From NCBI GenBank assembly GCA_025459365.1, contig JALOQR010000043.1, forward strand, positions 1 through 37,814: 37,814 nt of DNA, written 5' to 3'. The first letter of the stretch is position 1. The number at the start of each line of letters is the position of its first letter. Origin of the DNA: Fimbriiglobus sp. GTDB lineage: Bacteria; Planctomycetota; Planctomycetia; Gemmatales; Gemmataceae. Below, piece by piece: positions 11,757 to 16,690 of the stretch. Position numbers and translations under genes: made by a program. The notes beneath the pieces were generated by a model, which ran no database searches, had not been told where the DNA came from, and saw only the letters and a list, made by a program, of their open reading frames with translations.

Positions 11757-11813
11757 CGACCGCAGCAGCGTACACTGGGGTGTCCCCCCGGTGTGGGGCA
11801 GGGGTGCCGGCCG

Positions 11814-12512
11814 ATGACCGAAACCGAGTGGCGGACGGCCGATGGCGGCGGCAACCGCATGCTTGCCGTTGTGCGAGACCGCCTGTCGGCCCGAAAGTGG
11901 GTGTTGGTGGCGTGCGGAGTGGCCCGCGAGTACTCACCCGAGGCGTACCTCCCACTCGTGGAGGAAGTCGAGGCGTCGGTCGATCGCCCGCTCACCCCGG
12001 CCGATCTCAACCGCCTGAACGCACTTCTTCCCGAACCTCTGCGCCACTGGCTTCGACCAGACGCCCCCGAAGGCGGGCGTGTGTTCGGATCGACTGCCGA
12101 ACTGGGCAACCTCCTCCGCGAACTCTACGAGGGTGGGTTCTGGCCGAACCACGCCGGCCTATCGCGGGCGCTGGCCCACACCCTCCGCGAGCAACTCGGC
12201 AACCCGTTCCGCCCGTATTGCTGTGAACCCACATGGCGATCGGAGACGGTGCTCGCCCTGGCGTCGGCCGTCGACGGCACTTCTGCCTTCGACCGCCTGC
12301 CCATCCTGGCCGACGCGCTGGAAGACGCCGGATGCGATGAGCGATCGCTGCTCGACCACCTCCGCGGCCCCGGCCCGCACGCCCGCGGCTGCTGGGCGCT
12401 CGACCTCATCCTGAACCGCGACCCGGAACTGTTCGCCGAACCCCCGCTCCTGTCCACGCCCCGTCGCATGCGGCTCGGGCCGTTCACCCCGCCACCCGAA
12501 GGCATCGCGTGA
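11814..12512 (+). CDS. Gemmata-type conserved hypothetical protein
   Basis: ORF 11793..12512 with plausible start MTETEWRTADGG; NPFRPYCCEPTWRS...LPILADALEDAGCDERSLLDHLRGPGPHARGCWALDLIL, a segment I recognise as recurring in Gemmata hypothetical proteins. Confidence 0.7.
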   Translation: MTETEWRTADGGGNRMLAVVRDRLSARKWVLVACGVAREYSPEAYLPLVEEVEASVDRPLTPADLNRLNALLPEPLRHWLRPDAPEGGRVFGSTAELGNLLRELYEGGFWPNHAGLSRALAHTLREQLGNPFRPYCCEPTWRSETVLALASAVDGTSAFDRLPILADALEDAGCDERSLLDHLRGPGPHARGCWALDLILNRDPELFAEPPLLSTPRRMRLGPFTPPPEGIA

Positions 12513-12536: not shown

Positions 12537-12565
12537 TTGCATTCCACGACCCCGGTTGCTACTTT
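12537..12565 (+). promoter_or_regulatory. Candidate sigma70-type promoter of the leu leader (TTGCAT-N17-TACTTT, extended -10 TGC)
   Basis: Read by eye: ttgcat 12537-12542, 17-nt spacer, tactttt-type -10 at 12560-12565 preceded by tgc. Confidence 0.35.
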
Positions 12566-12588
12566 GTGAAATAGGAGACCAGACCACC

Positions 12589-12669
12589 GTGCCGGCAAAC
12601 TTTCGACTTGCGACCCTCATTCGACTTCTCGGCCTTGGCCGAGCGAGTTCCGGAGTCCATGCCGAGTAG
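12589..12669 (+). CDS. leuL: Leu-rich leader peptide (attenuator) MPANFRLATLIRLLGLGRASSGVHAE
   Basis: GTG start preceded by taggag (12572-12577); 26 codons then TAG; 5 Leu codons (CTT, CTC, CTT, CTC, CTT) within positions 7-16; directly upstream of a terminator and leuA. Confidence 0.75.
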   Translation: MPANFRLATLIRLLGLGRASSGVHAE

Positions 12670-12710
12670 CGGCCGCCACCGCACCCCGAGCACACGACGG
12701 CCCCGGAACT
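12645..12710 (+). promoter_or_regulatory. Predicted antiterminator pairing (gttccgg region with terminator 5' arm)
   Basis: agttccgg (12646-12653) is exactly complementary to ccggaact (12703-12710), the loop-proximal 5' arm of the terminator. Confidence 0.65.
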
Positions 12711-12733
12711 GACCGAGTTCCGGGGCCGTTTTT
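12697..12733 (+). terminator. Intrinsic terminator/attenuator upstream of leuA
   Basis: acggccccggaact-gaccg-agttccggggccgt followed by TTTTT: 14-bp perfect stem plus U tract, 31 nt before the leuA start. Confidence 0.85.
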
Positions 12734-12763
12734 CGTTCACCCTCCCCAACAGGTGCCTCGCCG

Positions 12764-14362
12764 ATGACCCCGCCGACCGACCCGAATCGCGTGATCGTGT
12801 TCGACACCACCCTCCGCGACGGCGAGCAAAGCCCCGGCTGCAGCATGAACCTCCAGGAGAAACTGGAGATGGCGCTGCAACTCAAGAACCTCGGGGTGGA
12901 CGTGATCGAGGCCGGGTTCCCCATCGCCAGCCCCGGCGACTTCGAGAGCGTGCGGGAGATCGCCCGGCAGGTGCACGGGCCGGTGATCGCCGGCCTCGCC
13001 CGGTGCAACCCGGCCGACATCGACCGCGCCGCCGAGGCAGTCAAACTGTCGCCGAACCCGCGGGTCCACGTCTTCCTTGCTACCAGTGCCATTCACCGCG
13101 AGTTCAAGCTGAAGATGGACCGGGCGGAGATCATCAAGCGGACGGTCGAGGGGGTGAAGCGGGCCCGCGACCAGGTGGCCGATGTCGAGTTCAGTCCGGA
13201 GGATGCCAGCCGGACGGAACTCGACTTCCTCGCCGAGGTGGTTGAGCGGGCGGTAGAGGCCGGTGCCACCACGCTGAACATCCCGGACACGGTCGGGTAC
13301 GCCGTGCCCGAGCACTACGCCGCCATCATCCGGCACCTGAAGAAGACGGTCCGCGGCATCGACAAGTGCATTCTGAGCGTTCACTGCCACAACGACCTGG
13401 GGCTGGCGGTGGCGAACAGCCTGGCGGCGCTGAAGGAGGGCGCGCGGCAGGTGGAATGCACCATCAACGGCATCGGCGAGCGGGCCGGCAACACCGCCCT
13501 GGAAGAGGTGGTGATGGCGATGCGGACGCGCCAGGACCACTACGGCCTGACCACCGGCATCCACACCCATCTCATCTCCCCGACGAGCCGGAAGTTGATC
13601 GCCTTGACGGGGATGCAGGTGCAGCGGAACAAGGCGATCGTCGGGCGAAACGCCTTCGCCCACGAGGCCGGTATCCACCAGGACGGCATGCTGAAGAACG
13701 CCAACACCTACGAGATCATGCGGCCCGAAGACCTGGGCATCCAGAAGACGGAACTGGTGCTCGGCAAGCACAGCGGGCGGGCCGCCCTGCGAGACCGCGT
13801 CGGGCACCTCGGCTACAGCCTGAGCGACGAGCAACTGAACGGCGTGTTCGCCGCCTTCAAGAAACTGGCCGACGCCAAGAAAGAAGTGTTCGATGCCGAC
13901 ATCGAGTCGCTCGTGGACTCCGAACTTCAGGCGGGTCTGGAGAACCGCAAGGTGTGGACGCTCGTCGGCTTCACCAGCACCGCGGGCACCGGGTCGCAGA
14001 CCTCGGCGGCGGTGAGCCTGAAGCACCGCGACGACCCGGAAGGCCGGGTGCGGCGAGACGCAGCGCCGGGCAACGGGCCAATCGACGCGCTATTCAAGGC
14101 GATCAGCCGCGTGACTGGCGTGGAGGCGAAGGTGGTCGATTACCGGGTCCGGGCACTGACGCAAGACATGGACGCACTCGGCGAGGCCCATGTGGAAGTG
14201 GAGCAGGGGGGGCGACGAACGAGCGCCCGGGCGACGAGCATGGATGTGATCGAGGCCAGCGCACTCGCTTACCTGGAGGTCATCAACCGCGTGCTGCAAC
14301 AGCGGCAGCGGGACCGCCTGAAGCCGACCGACCACGTCCCGCCGGGAGTGGTGCCGGTGTAG
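12764..14362 (+). CDS. leuA: 2-isopropylmalate synthase
   Basis: [92 protein letters not shown]. Confidence 0.96.
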
Positions 14363-15341: not shown

Positions 15342-15362
15342 CCCGACGACTGGGTAGGCAAG

Positions 15363-15435
15363 TAACCCCGGGTGGACTCGAACCACCGATCTCCTGTTTG
15401 TAAGACAGGCGCCTTCGCCGCTAGGCTACGGAGTT
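15363..15435 (-). tRNA. tRNA-Val(UAC)
   Basis: RC: AACTCCGTAGCCTAGCGGCGAAGGCGCCTGTCTTACAAACAGGAGATCGGTGGTTCGAGTCCACCCGGGGTTA; complete cloverleaf, loop CTTACAA, no encoded CCA. Confidence 0.93.
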
Positions 15436-15486
15436 GTGTCGTCGAGTGCCCCAGCCAGGATTGTCCGGCTCCCTTCCGTCAGTCAG

Positions 15487-15557
15487 TGGACCCGCCGGGG
15501 ATCGAACCCGGACGACCGCCATGCCATAGCGGGGTCATCCCGTGAGACCACAGACCC
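15487..15557 (-). tRNA. tRNA-Ala(GGC)
   Basis: RC: GGGTCTGTGGTCTCACGGGATGACCCCGCTATGGCATGGCGGTCGTCCGGGTTCGATCCCCGGCGGGTCCA; G3:U70 present; loop ATGGCAT. Confidence 0.88.
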
Positions 15558-15562
15558 GTGAG

Positions 15563-15630
15563 TGGAGTCGCGGGGAGTCGAACCCCGTGGCCGTGCTTGC
15601 AAGGCACAGCCCCAGCCCGCTGGCGTCCCC
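15563..15630 (-). tRNA. tRNA-Ala(UGC), short (68 nt), A5:A68 mismatch and irregular D-arm
   Basis: RC: GGGGACGCCAGCGGGCTGGGGCTGTGCCTTGCAAGCACGGCCACGGGGTTCGACTCCCCGCGACTCCA; G3:U70 present; loop CTTGCAA. Confidence 0.7.
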
Positions 15631-15635
15631 GTCAG

Positions 15636-15709
15636 TGACCGGGGTGGGAGTCGAACCCACACCCATGAGGTTCTCGGCCTCACCCCTCTACCAGTTGGGG
15701 TACCCGGTC
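15636..15709 (-). tRNA. tRNA with Leu anticodon (GAG) but short, class I variable region; C33
   Basis: RC: GACCGGGTACCCCAACTGGTAGAGGGGTGAGGCCGAGAACCTCATGGGTGTGGGTTCGACTCCCACCCCGGTCA; all stems pair, loop CCGAGAA. Confidence 0.78.
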
Positions 15710-15715
15710 GGTGAG

Positions 15716-15783
15716 TTGCAGACCCGGGAGTCGAACCCGGCCTCCAGGCTTATGAGACCCGAACGGGCGCCGGCCCGTCTGCA
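15716..15783 (-). tRNA. tRNA-Met-like (CAU), 68 nt with shortened D-arm
   Basis: RC: TGCAGACGGGCCGGCGCCCGTTCGGGTCTCATAAGCCTGGAGGCCGGGTTCGACTCCCGGGTCTGCAA; 7-bp acceptor and T-arm perfect, loop CTCATAA. Confidence 0.7.
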
Positions 15784-15789
15784 ATTCCG

Positions 15790-15851
15790 TCGCACGCCCC
15801 GGACTCGAACCGGCTGAGACCGCGGCCTCTGCCAGGTTGGGCTACGTCACT
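15790..15851 (-). pseudogene. tRNA-like remnant with anticodon arm 3' half and variable region deleted
   Basis: RC: AGTGACGTAGCCCAACCTGGCAGAGGCCGCGGTCTCAGCCGGTTCGAGTCCGGGGCGTGCG...: canonical D-arm and TTCGAGT T-arm, but only about 61 nt and no complete anticodon stem; acceptor badly paired. Confidence 0.65.
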
Positions 15852-15856
15852 GGGAT

Positions 15857-15929
15857 TGACCCGTGCGGGAATCGAACCCGCGTTACCAGCGTGAGAGGCT
15901 GGCGTCCTGAACCGCTAGACGAACGGGCC
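15857..15929 (-). tRNA. tRNA-Glu(CUC)
   Basis: RC: GGCCCGTTCGTCTAGCGGTTCAGGACGCCAGCCTCTCACGCTGGTAACGCGGGTTCGATTCCCGCACGGGTCA; textbook Glu body, loop CTCTCAC. Confidence 0.95.
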
Positions 15930-15944
15930 GTACTCTTCCGTCAA

Positions 15945-16026
15945 TGCGTCGGGCAGGGATCGAACCTGCCAGCCCCGAAGGGCACCGGGTTACAGCCGGG
16001 TGGCACGCCGTTGTGCCGTCCGACGC
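15945..16026 (-). tRNA. tRNA-Tyr(GUA), class II
   Basis: RC: GCGTCGGACGGCACAACGGCGTGCCACCCGGCTGTAACCCGGTGCCCTTCGGGGCTGGCAGGTTCGATCCCTGCCCGACGCA; long variable arm, loop CTGTAAC. Confidence 0.88.
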
Positions 16027-16038
16027 ATGGCTTCCGAG

Positions 16039-16112
16039 TGGCACGGGTGGGAGTCGAACCCACACCCCCCGAGGCTTAAGGTCGGGCGCTCTACCAGTTG
16101 GCGCACCGTGCC
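16039..16112 (-). tRNA. tRNA with Leu anticodon (UAA) but short, class I variable region
   Basis: RC: GGCACGGTGCGCCAACTGGTAGAGCGCCCGACCTTAAGCCTCGGGGGGTGTGGGTTCGACTCCCACCCGTGCCA; loop CTTAAGC; 31:39 mismatch C:C. Confidence 0.8.
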
Positions 16113-16122
16113 ACTGTGTCAG

Positions 16123-16195
16123 CGCCCCTGGCGGGATTCGAACCCGCGGCCTCCGCCGTGACAGGGCGGCGAGCACTCCGCTGCTCCACAAGGGC
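16123..16195 (-). tRNA. tRNA-Asp(GUC)
   Basis: RC: GCCCTTGTGGAGCAGCGGAGTGCTCGCCGCCCTGTCACGGCGGAGGCCGCGGGTTCGAATCCCGCCAGGGGCG; G73, loop CTGTCAC. Confidence 0.94.
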
Positions 16196-16216
16196 GTGTT
16201 GATCGTGTCCATCCAG

Positions 16217-16288
16217 AGCGCCCGGCGGGAGTCGAACCCGCTCATCCGCCTTGGCAAGGCGGCAGGCCAGCCGTTACATCACGGGCGC
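16217..16288 (-). tRNA. tRNA-Gly(GCC)
   Basis: RC: GCGCCCGTGATGTAACGGCTGGCCTGCCGCCTTGCCAAGGCGGATGAGCGGGTTCGACTCCCGCCGGGCGCT; U73. Confidence 0.95.
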
Positions 16289-16302
16289 GTTGTGTCGAGC
16301 CA

Positions 16303-16373
16303 AGCCCCCGGCAGGAGTCGAACCTGCGCGGCCGTCTTACCAAGACGGAAGGCTACCGTTACATCACGAGGGC
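16303..16373 (-). tRNA. tRNA with Thr anticodon (GGU) on a Gly-type body (U73)
   Basis: RC: GCCCTCGTGATGTAACGGTAGCCTTCCGTCTTGGTAAGACGGCCGCGCAGGTTCGACTCCTGCCGGGGGCT; loop TTGGTAA; shares TGATGTAACGG and U73 with the adjacent tRNA-Gly(GCC). Confidence 0.85.
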
Positions 16374-16381
16374 GTCGTCAG

Positions 16382-16454
16382 TGTCCCCGCCAGGAATCGA
16401 ACCTGGTCTTCAACCTTCGGAGGGTCGCGTGCAAGTCCGGCACACCCCGAGGAC
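16382..16454 (-). tRNA. tRNA-Arg(CCG)
   Basis: RC: GTCCTCGGGGTGTGCCGGACTTGCACGCGACCCTCCGAAGGTTGAAGACCAGGTTCGATTCCTGGCGGGGACA; loop CTCCGAA. Confidence 0.87.
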
Positions 16455-16461
16455 AGTTCAG

Positions 16462-16532
16462 AGCACCCGGTGGGGATCGAACCCACGACTCCGGTTTGGA
16501 AGACCGGCGCGTTGCCGTTACGCCACAAGTGC
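16462..16532 (-). tRNA. tRNA-Gly(UCC)
   Basis: RC: GCACTTGTGGCGTAACGGCAACGCGCCGGTCTTCCAAACCGGAGTCGTGGGTTCGATCCCCACCGGGTGCT; U73. Confidence 0.94.
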
Positions 16533-16538
16533 TGGCAG

Positions 16539-16610
16539 TGAGGTCCGAGGGACTTGAACCCTCACATCCTGGGTAAGAGCCAGGAGTGCTGCCGCTAACA
16601 CCTGGACCTC
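16539..16610 (-). tRNA. tRNA-Lys(CUU)
   Basis: RC: GAGGTCCAGGTGTTAGCGGCAGCACTCCTGGCTCTTACCCAGGATGTGAGGGTTCAAGTCCCTCGGACCTCA; loop CTCTTAC. Confidence 0.88.
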
Positions 16611-16617
16611 ATTCGAG

Positions 16618-16690
16618 TCACCCGTGGGGGAATCGAACCCCCACCTCCGGATTGAAAGCCCGGCGTCCTGGCCGTTAGACGGAACGGGTG
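16618..16690 (-). tRNA. tRNA-Glu(UUC)
   Basis: RC: CACCCGTTCCGTCTAACGGCCAGGACGCCGGGCTTTCAATCCGGAGGTGGGGGTTCGATTCCCCCACGGGTGA; loop CTTTCAA. Confidence 0.93.

Follow-up and report, generated by a model that had tools for sequence, protein, structure and literature searches.

A putative leucine-codon attenuator preceding leuA in Planctomycetia

Results and discussion

Organization of the region upstream of leuA

The window (the whole stretch of DNA analyzed, 37,814 nucleotides from Fimbriiglobus sp., family Gemmataceae, with a source genome of 5.0 Mb in 471 contigs) carries leuA, preceded by the features listed in Table 1. The first-pass annotation of this DNA had named the downstream gene leuA, an assignment upheld by two protein family models that both exceed their cut-offs, and had described before it a GTG-started frame of 26 codons with five Leu codons, which is indeed present at coordinates correct to within a base or two.

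Table 1. Features of the leuA upstream region, in window coordinates
Feature	Position	Strand	Details
Promoter-like element TTGCAT-N17-TACTTT	12537..12565	+	Pattern kept in relatives
AGGAG, possible leader ribosome-binding site	12573..12577	+	From sequence; weak
Leader peptide ORF	12589..12669	+	GTG start, 26 codons, MPANFRLATLIRLLGLGRASSGVHAE, stop TAG 12667-12669
Leu codons of the leader ORF	CTT 12607, CTC 12616, CTT 12625, CTC 12628, CTT 12634	+	
CTCGGC-CTTG-GCCGAG hairpin, spanning the final Leu codons	12628..12643	+	Candidate pause hairpin, part of the putative protector structure
Antiterminator 5' arm AGTTCCGG	12646..12653	+	Begins 9 nt past the last Leu codon
Inner hairpin region enclosed by the antiterminator	12660..12693	+	From the fold of Leu-masked RNA
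Intrinsic terminator	12696..12733	+	5' arm 12696-12710, loop 12711-12715, 3' arm 12716-12730
Antiterminator 3' arm	12703-12710	+	Part of terminator 5' arm
Terminator T tract (T5)	12729-12733	+	
leuA, 2-isopropylmalate synthase (regulated gene)	12764..14362	+	NCBIfam TIGR00973 and NF002086 above cut-off

The general pattern of the promoter-like element (TTGnnn-N15-19-TAnnnT, at most 75 nt 5' of the leader ORF) recurs in 50 of 63 relatives, compared with 5% in shuffles; the copy in the window is absent from the output of a stricter promoter scan. Transcription is predicted to start at about position 12571. An AGGAG had been proposed upstream of the leader and is present, but it sits 11 nt from the GTG, further than is usual for a Shine-Dalgarno sequence. 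The equivalent in locus L003 is GAGAGGA, the motif is poorly kept in other loci, and other members have little Shine-Dalgarno sequence. Because of this long spacing, and of the scant Shine-Dalgarno sequence elsewhere, we only infer that the leader is translated.

The best ORF of the leader region has 5 Leu within 12 codons, against a mean of 0.48 in 2000 dinucleotide shuffles (p = 0.0005). Folding of positions 12570-12763, which had been suggested as a check, gave z = -3.48 relative to shuffles, mostly contributed by the terminator. That terminator had been described as 14 bp with a T5 tract (12697-12733); it is present, and is 15 bp long once the closing A-T pairs are included. The proposed antiterminator pairing (agttccgg with ccggaact) is fully complementary. 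The self-complementary ctcggcc-tt-ggccgag over the last Leu codons also exists, but as a separate hairpin that covaries in three species of the genus, and is not itself the antiterminator. Within the genus this hairpin shows two compensatory changes (three species compared), and its loop-adjacent pair is C-G in the window, G-C in L003 and A-T in L004. Such window-only evidence (Leu enrichment, fold energy and the excess of CTT codons discussed below) is suggestive, and the comparative evidence is decisive.

Conservation of the leader across Planctomycetia

We located leuA in 145 of 149 relatives and took upstream regions from 110 loci, scoring a Leu-rich ORF as at least 4 Leu in 12 codons and a terminator as one lying within 70 nt. 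A Leu-rich ORF precedes leuA in 62 of the 68 Gemmataceae loci, and is accompanied by a terminator in 59 of the 68; ORF and terminator occur together in all three loci of a sister family (f2) and, among 39 loci from the remaining families of Planctomycetia, in 25. Relatives without the Leu-rich frame, or without the alternative pairing, had been named as an outcome that would speak against an attenuator; the frame is instead kept in Gemmataceae and in most Planctomycetia families, and the pairing is kept while both partners change sequence between genera. The mean maximum Leu count per 12 codons was 6.1 and 6.3 in two locus sets, compared with 0.9-1.0 in shuffles and 0.4-0.8 on the antisense strand. 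Per-locus numbers are approximate because the automatic choice of ORF was wrong at some loci (for example L012, where the likely leader is MPRCAILIENLLLLRLSGGRFSSRVG). The leader peptides of distant genera have no resemblance beyond the Leu run, and examples include MERGLLLLDLLLPLLRSPS (L067), MRTPLLLLDLLLLLPRE (L047), MNQNLLLLQLLLITSGC (L098), MQYLNLLSLLLPGLLLCGGA (L099) and, with arm and terminator, MTASLLLLNLPLLGPSRGHCPSRVG (genome G045, genus g17, locus L009).

The Leu run or the whole leader has been lost in two Gemmataceae genera, g8 (L013 and L020) and g26 (L046, L055 and L056), and the leader is therefore not essential. These losses offer natural material for comparing regulated with unregulated leuA.

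The terminator might instead belong to the gene upstream (11793-12512), which lies on the same strand and ends 184 nt before it, the small ORF being a chance frame; intergenic terminators are common. A conserved promoter-like element, however, sits between that gene and the terminator, the Leu run far exceeds shuffles, and ORF, arm and terminator stay before leuA while the sequence further upstream differs among relatives, so that we consider this explanation highly improbable.

Covariation and spacing of the antiterminator

Downstream of the Leu run, nearly every locus has an arm that can base-pair with the 5' arm of its terminator, with sequences that differ between loci: AGTTCCGG with CCGGAACT in the window, CGAGTTTCG with CGGAACTCG in L004, GTCCTAGG with CCTGGGAC in L067, AGGCCCCGG with CCGGGGCCT in L053, CTTAGGGTTC with GAACCCTGAG in L116, and ATCGTAGGG with CCCTACGAT in L137. 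We evaluated this pairing by swapping partners between species: the native score is 21.4 and that of the swaps 16.7 (z 12.3, with none of 20,000 permutations reaching the native value), and a control segment, the 35 nt before the start codon, scores 12.4. Within the near group the same test gives z 2.1; it is weak there, since the terminator core GGCCCCGGA is nearly invariant, and antiterminator covariation as a criterion accordingly says little in that group.

For the diverged sets, almost no consensus emerged from RNAalifold run on MAFFT alignments, and they were analyzed through folds of individual sequences together with the swap test and a named structure. Across 20 aligned relatives, the helix of the antiterminator hardly varies, and four pairs of the inner hairpin have changes on both sides. 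The structure as a whole has a covariation score of 0.111; shuffles give 0.073, with 0 of 500 reaching the observed value, and sliding the structure along the alignment gives at most 0.072. Masking at any of the five Leu codons of the window keeps the arm available, and the RNA is then predicted to fold into the antiterminator; with a ribosome placed at the stop codon, the predicted structure that remains is the terminator. With Leu codons masked, the arm pairs with the terminator 5' arm in 27 near sequences including the window (folds judged by inspection), and most of these folds enclose an inner hairpin that carries the leader stop codon. Predicted folds hold the arm in a putative protector hairpin in most relatives, the covariation of the window's own hairpin coming from three species.

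The arm starts a median of 9.5 nt past the last clustered Leu codon (interquartile range 7.75-11; 84 loci), and 9 nt past it in the window. Ribosomes protect about 9-10 nt past the codon in the A site. Since this footprint approximates the arm spacing, stalling at the last Leu codon would just spare the arm, and a ribosome one codon further on would begin to cover it. In many relatives (Gemmata-type members) the stop codon comes 25-33 nt after the arm, which a ribosome pausing at the stop would already have passed, and masking of the arm at the stop codon therefore cannot alone explain the switch. Several Gemmata-type terminators have an interrupted T tract.

Control codons and tRNA-Leu

The codon CTT had been described as uncommon in this GC-rich window, and it accounts for 7.2% of the Leu codons across the genes of the window (69/965), against three of the five in the leader (binomial P = 0.003). 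Across 27 close relatives, CTT accounts for 36% of leader Leu codons (58/161) and for 3% of those in leuA of the same genomes (35/1164; Fisher P = 5.5e-34). Use of a rare codon as the sensor is known from other attenuators. The reader of both CTT and CTC is tRNA-Leu(GAG), of which the genome has one with the usual long variable arm (L293).

Neither the T-box models of Rfam nor any other Rfam family matches the window element at E <= 1. The presence of terminator and antiterminator in a 5' leader would also suit a riboswitch or T-box in which the RNA itself recognizes leucine or tRNA and the ORF is fortuitous; what is conserved, however, is the amino acid composition of the ORF, its codon choice and a spacing on the scale of the ribosome, rather than an aptamer-like core, and together with the absence of an Rfam match this leaves direct sensing with very little probability.

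Separately, about 1 kb past leuA, the window contains an array of 15 tRNA genes spanning 1.3 kb (15362-16690, minus strand), in which the two called tRNA-Leu genes (GAG, 15635-15709, and TAA, 16038-16112) are 75 nt long and lack the long variable arm of bacterial tRNA-Leu. Normal-length tRNA-Leu genes with anticodons GAG, TAA, TAG and CAA are found elsewhere in the genome. Long ORFs on both strands (15883-16257 and 15944-16576) overlap the array and are likely artefacts.

Specificity for leuA

We built a covariance model of the element from 18 seed sequences and searched it against 95 Gemmataceae genomes, of which 31 matched at E <= 0.001; strong matches (E < 1e-6) occur once per genome. All 27 strong matches compared with leuA coordinates lie 17-49 nt before leuA, and in three non-seed genomes (G291-G293) the match falls at a Leu-rich leader preceding that gene. 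Sequence divergence puts most other genera beyond the model's reach. The sequences preceding ilvB and trpE in the relatives served as controls and contained no conserved Leu-, Ile/Val- or Trp-rich ORF.

Proposed mechanism

The region combines an ORF with a cluster of codons for one amino acid, an intrinsic terminator between that ORF and leuA, an antiterminator that covaries with the terminator and excludes it, and a spacing compatible with a stalled ribosome. We propose that the element in the window controls leuA by classical, ribosome-mediated attenuation of transcription (probability roughly 0.88). Within this model, the start of transcription, the stalling of the ribosome, readthrough and the response to leucine are all predictions from sequence.

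RNA polymerase would start near 12571 and a ribosome would begin the 26-codon leader. If leucyl-tRNA were scarce (above all tRNA-Leu(GAG)), the ribosome would stall on a Leu codon with its front edge ending just before 12646, leaving the arm AGTTCCGG free to pair with the emerging terminator 5' arm, and transcription would continue into leuA. If leucine were ample, the ribosome would pass the last Leu codon, cover the arm and come to rest on the stop codon, which lies within the antiterminator-enclosed hairpin; the terminator would then fold and transcription would stop before leuA. Without translation, the leader is expected to fold on itself, and the terminator to form in this case too. For the Gemmata-type members, the model has to assume that the inner hairpin is disrupted or that the protector hairpin refolds; folds suggest that a ribosome waiting at the stop would open the inner hairpin, with the freed arm then refolding onto the Leu-codon region.

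Comparison with known leucine leaders

The control codon of the E. coli leu leader is CUA. That leader (E. coli and Salmonella leuL, RF00512) shares with the planctomycete element a Leu-rich peptide, rare Leu control codons and a terminator/antiterminator switch before leuA; the planctomycete element, in contrast, occurs in another phylum, lies beyond the reach of the Rfam model at the threshold given above, uses CTT/CTC as control codons, and has an antiterminator that encloses the hairpin carrying the stop codon. The ilv-leu attenuator of S. aureus likewise combines a Leu-rich leader peptide with a terminator outside Proteobacteria, but its antiterminator captures the U tract and leaves the terminator stem intact, whereas the planctomycete arm takes the terminator 5' arm, and its operon differs in having ilvD as first gene (PMC5794164).

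The actinobacterial LEU element also has an ORF with a Leu run directly before leuA, but is a pseudoknot in which the Leu run is paired to the leuA Shine-Dalgarno sequence, and mutations of leader codons at Streptomyces leuA had effects inconsistent with attenuation (PMC1262725). This precedent, together with the many relatives in which the arm would lie behind a ribosome that has reached the stop, would accord with leader-peptide control of leuA by other means, such as regulation of translation or an RNA bound by protein. The planctomycete leader, however, has a clear intrinsic terminator, conserved together with a mutually exclusive antiterminator, and the Leu run pairs with the leuA ribosome-binding region no better than in swaps (11.03 vs 10.97, sd 0.23), a result on which such pairing was rejected as a candidate; we judge control of this other kind to be unlikely.

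Distribution and implications

We found no description of a planctomycete leader-peptide attenuator in the open-access literature, and the apparent novelty is provisional. A broad survey of attenuation by Lopatovskaya et al. 2010 (Mol Biol 44:128, cited in PMC4833913) may mention planctomycetes. Short leader ORFs in Planctomycetes have been counted for another purpose (PMC4833913). A 2010 survey listed Proteobacteria and Actinobacteria as the only phyla in which leader-peptide attenuators were known, and extended the list to Firmicutes (PMC2965389); a later one suggested that they arose in gamma-proteobacteria (PMC3766115). The first-pass annotation had considered such an element notable in a planctomycete, and its spread proves broader than that claim, extending through the class Planctomycetia. 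A set so conserved and so diverged in sequence widens the known range of these attenuators and argues for an old or a repeated origin. We give about even odds to the stronger proposition that the attenuator is class-wide and ancestral to Planctomycetia, with an antiterminator that starts at the front edge of the ribosome and encloses the stop-codon hairpin.

Attenuation of this kind works only if the ribosome follows close behind RNA polymerase. Spatially segregated transcription and translation have been reported for Gemmata obscuriglobus, according to three articles that cite Gottshall et al. 2014 (PMC6212462, PMC5394234 and PMC5287468), and the cell plan is still disputed. A conserved attenuator in the same family constitutes sequence evidence for coupling of transcription and translation, at least at leuA. 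If the ancestral, class-wide proposition is true, upkeep of the attenuator in Gemmata-type species would point to tight coupling, again at least at leuA, in bacteria once called spatially segregated.

A phylum-wide search yielded only scattered candidates outside the class Planctomycetia (L230, L240 and L244). A Leu-rich leader with terminator also precedes leuA in three loci labelled Phycisphaerae (L137, L138 and L140), in a Spirochaetia metagenome-assembled genome (MAG; L180) and in a MAG labelled Gammaproteobacteria (L144). At alphaproteobacterial leuA loci (including L146, L148, L149, L151, L155, L160, L163, L164 and L190), small upstream ORFs end in LLLLSRP or a close variant; a terminator scan found none there, and these ORFs may represent a different leuA leader in Alphaproteobacteria.
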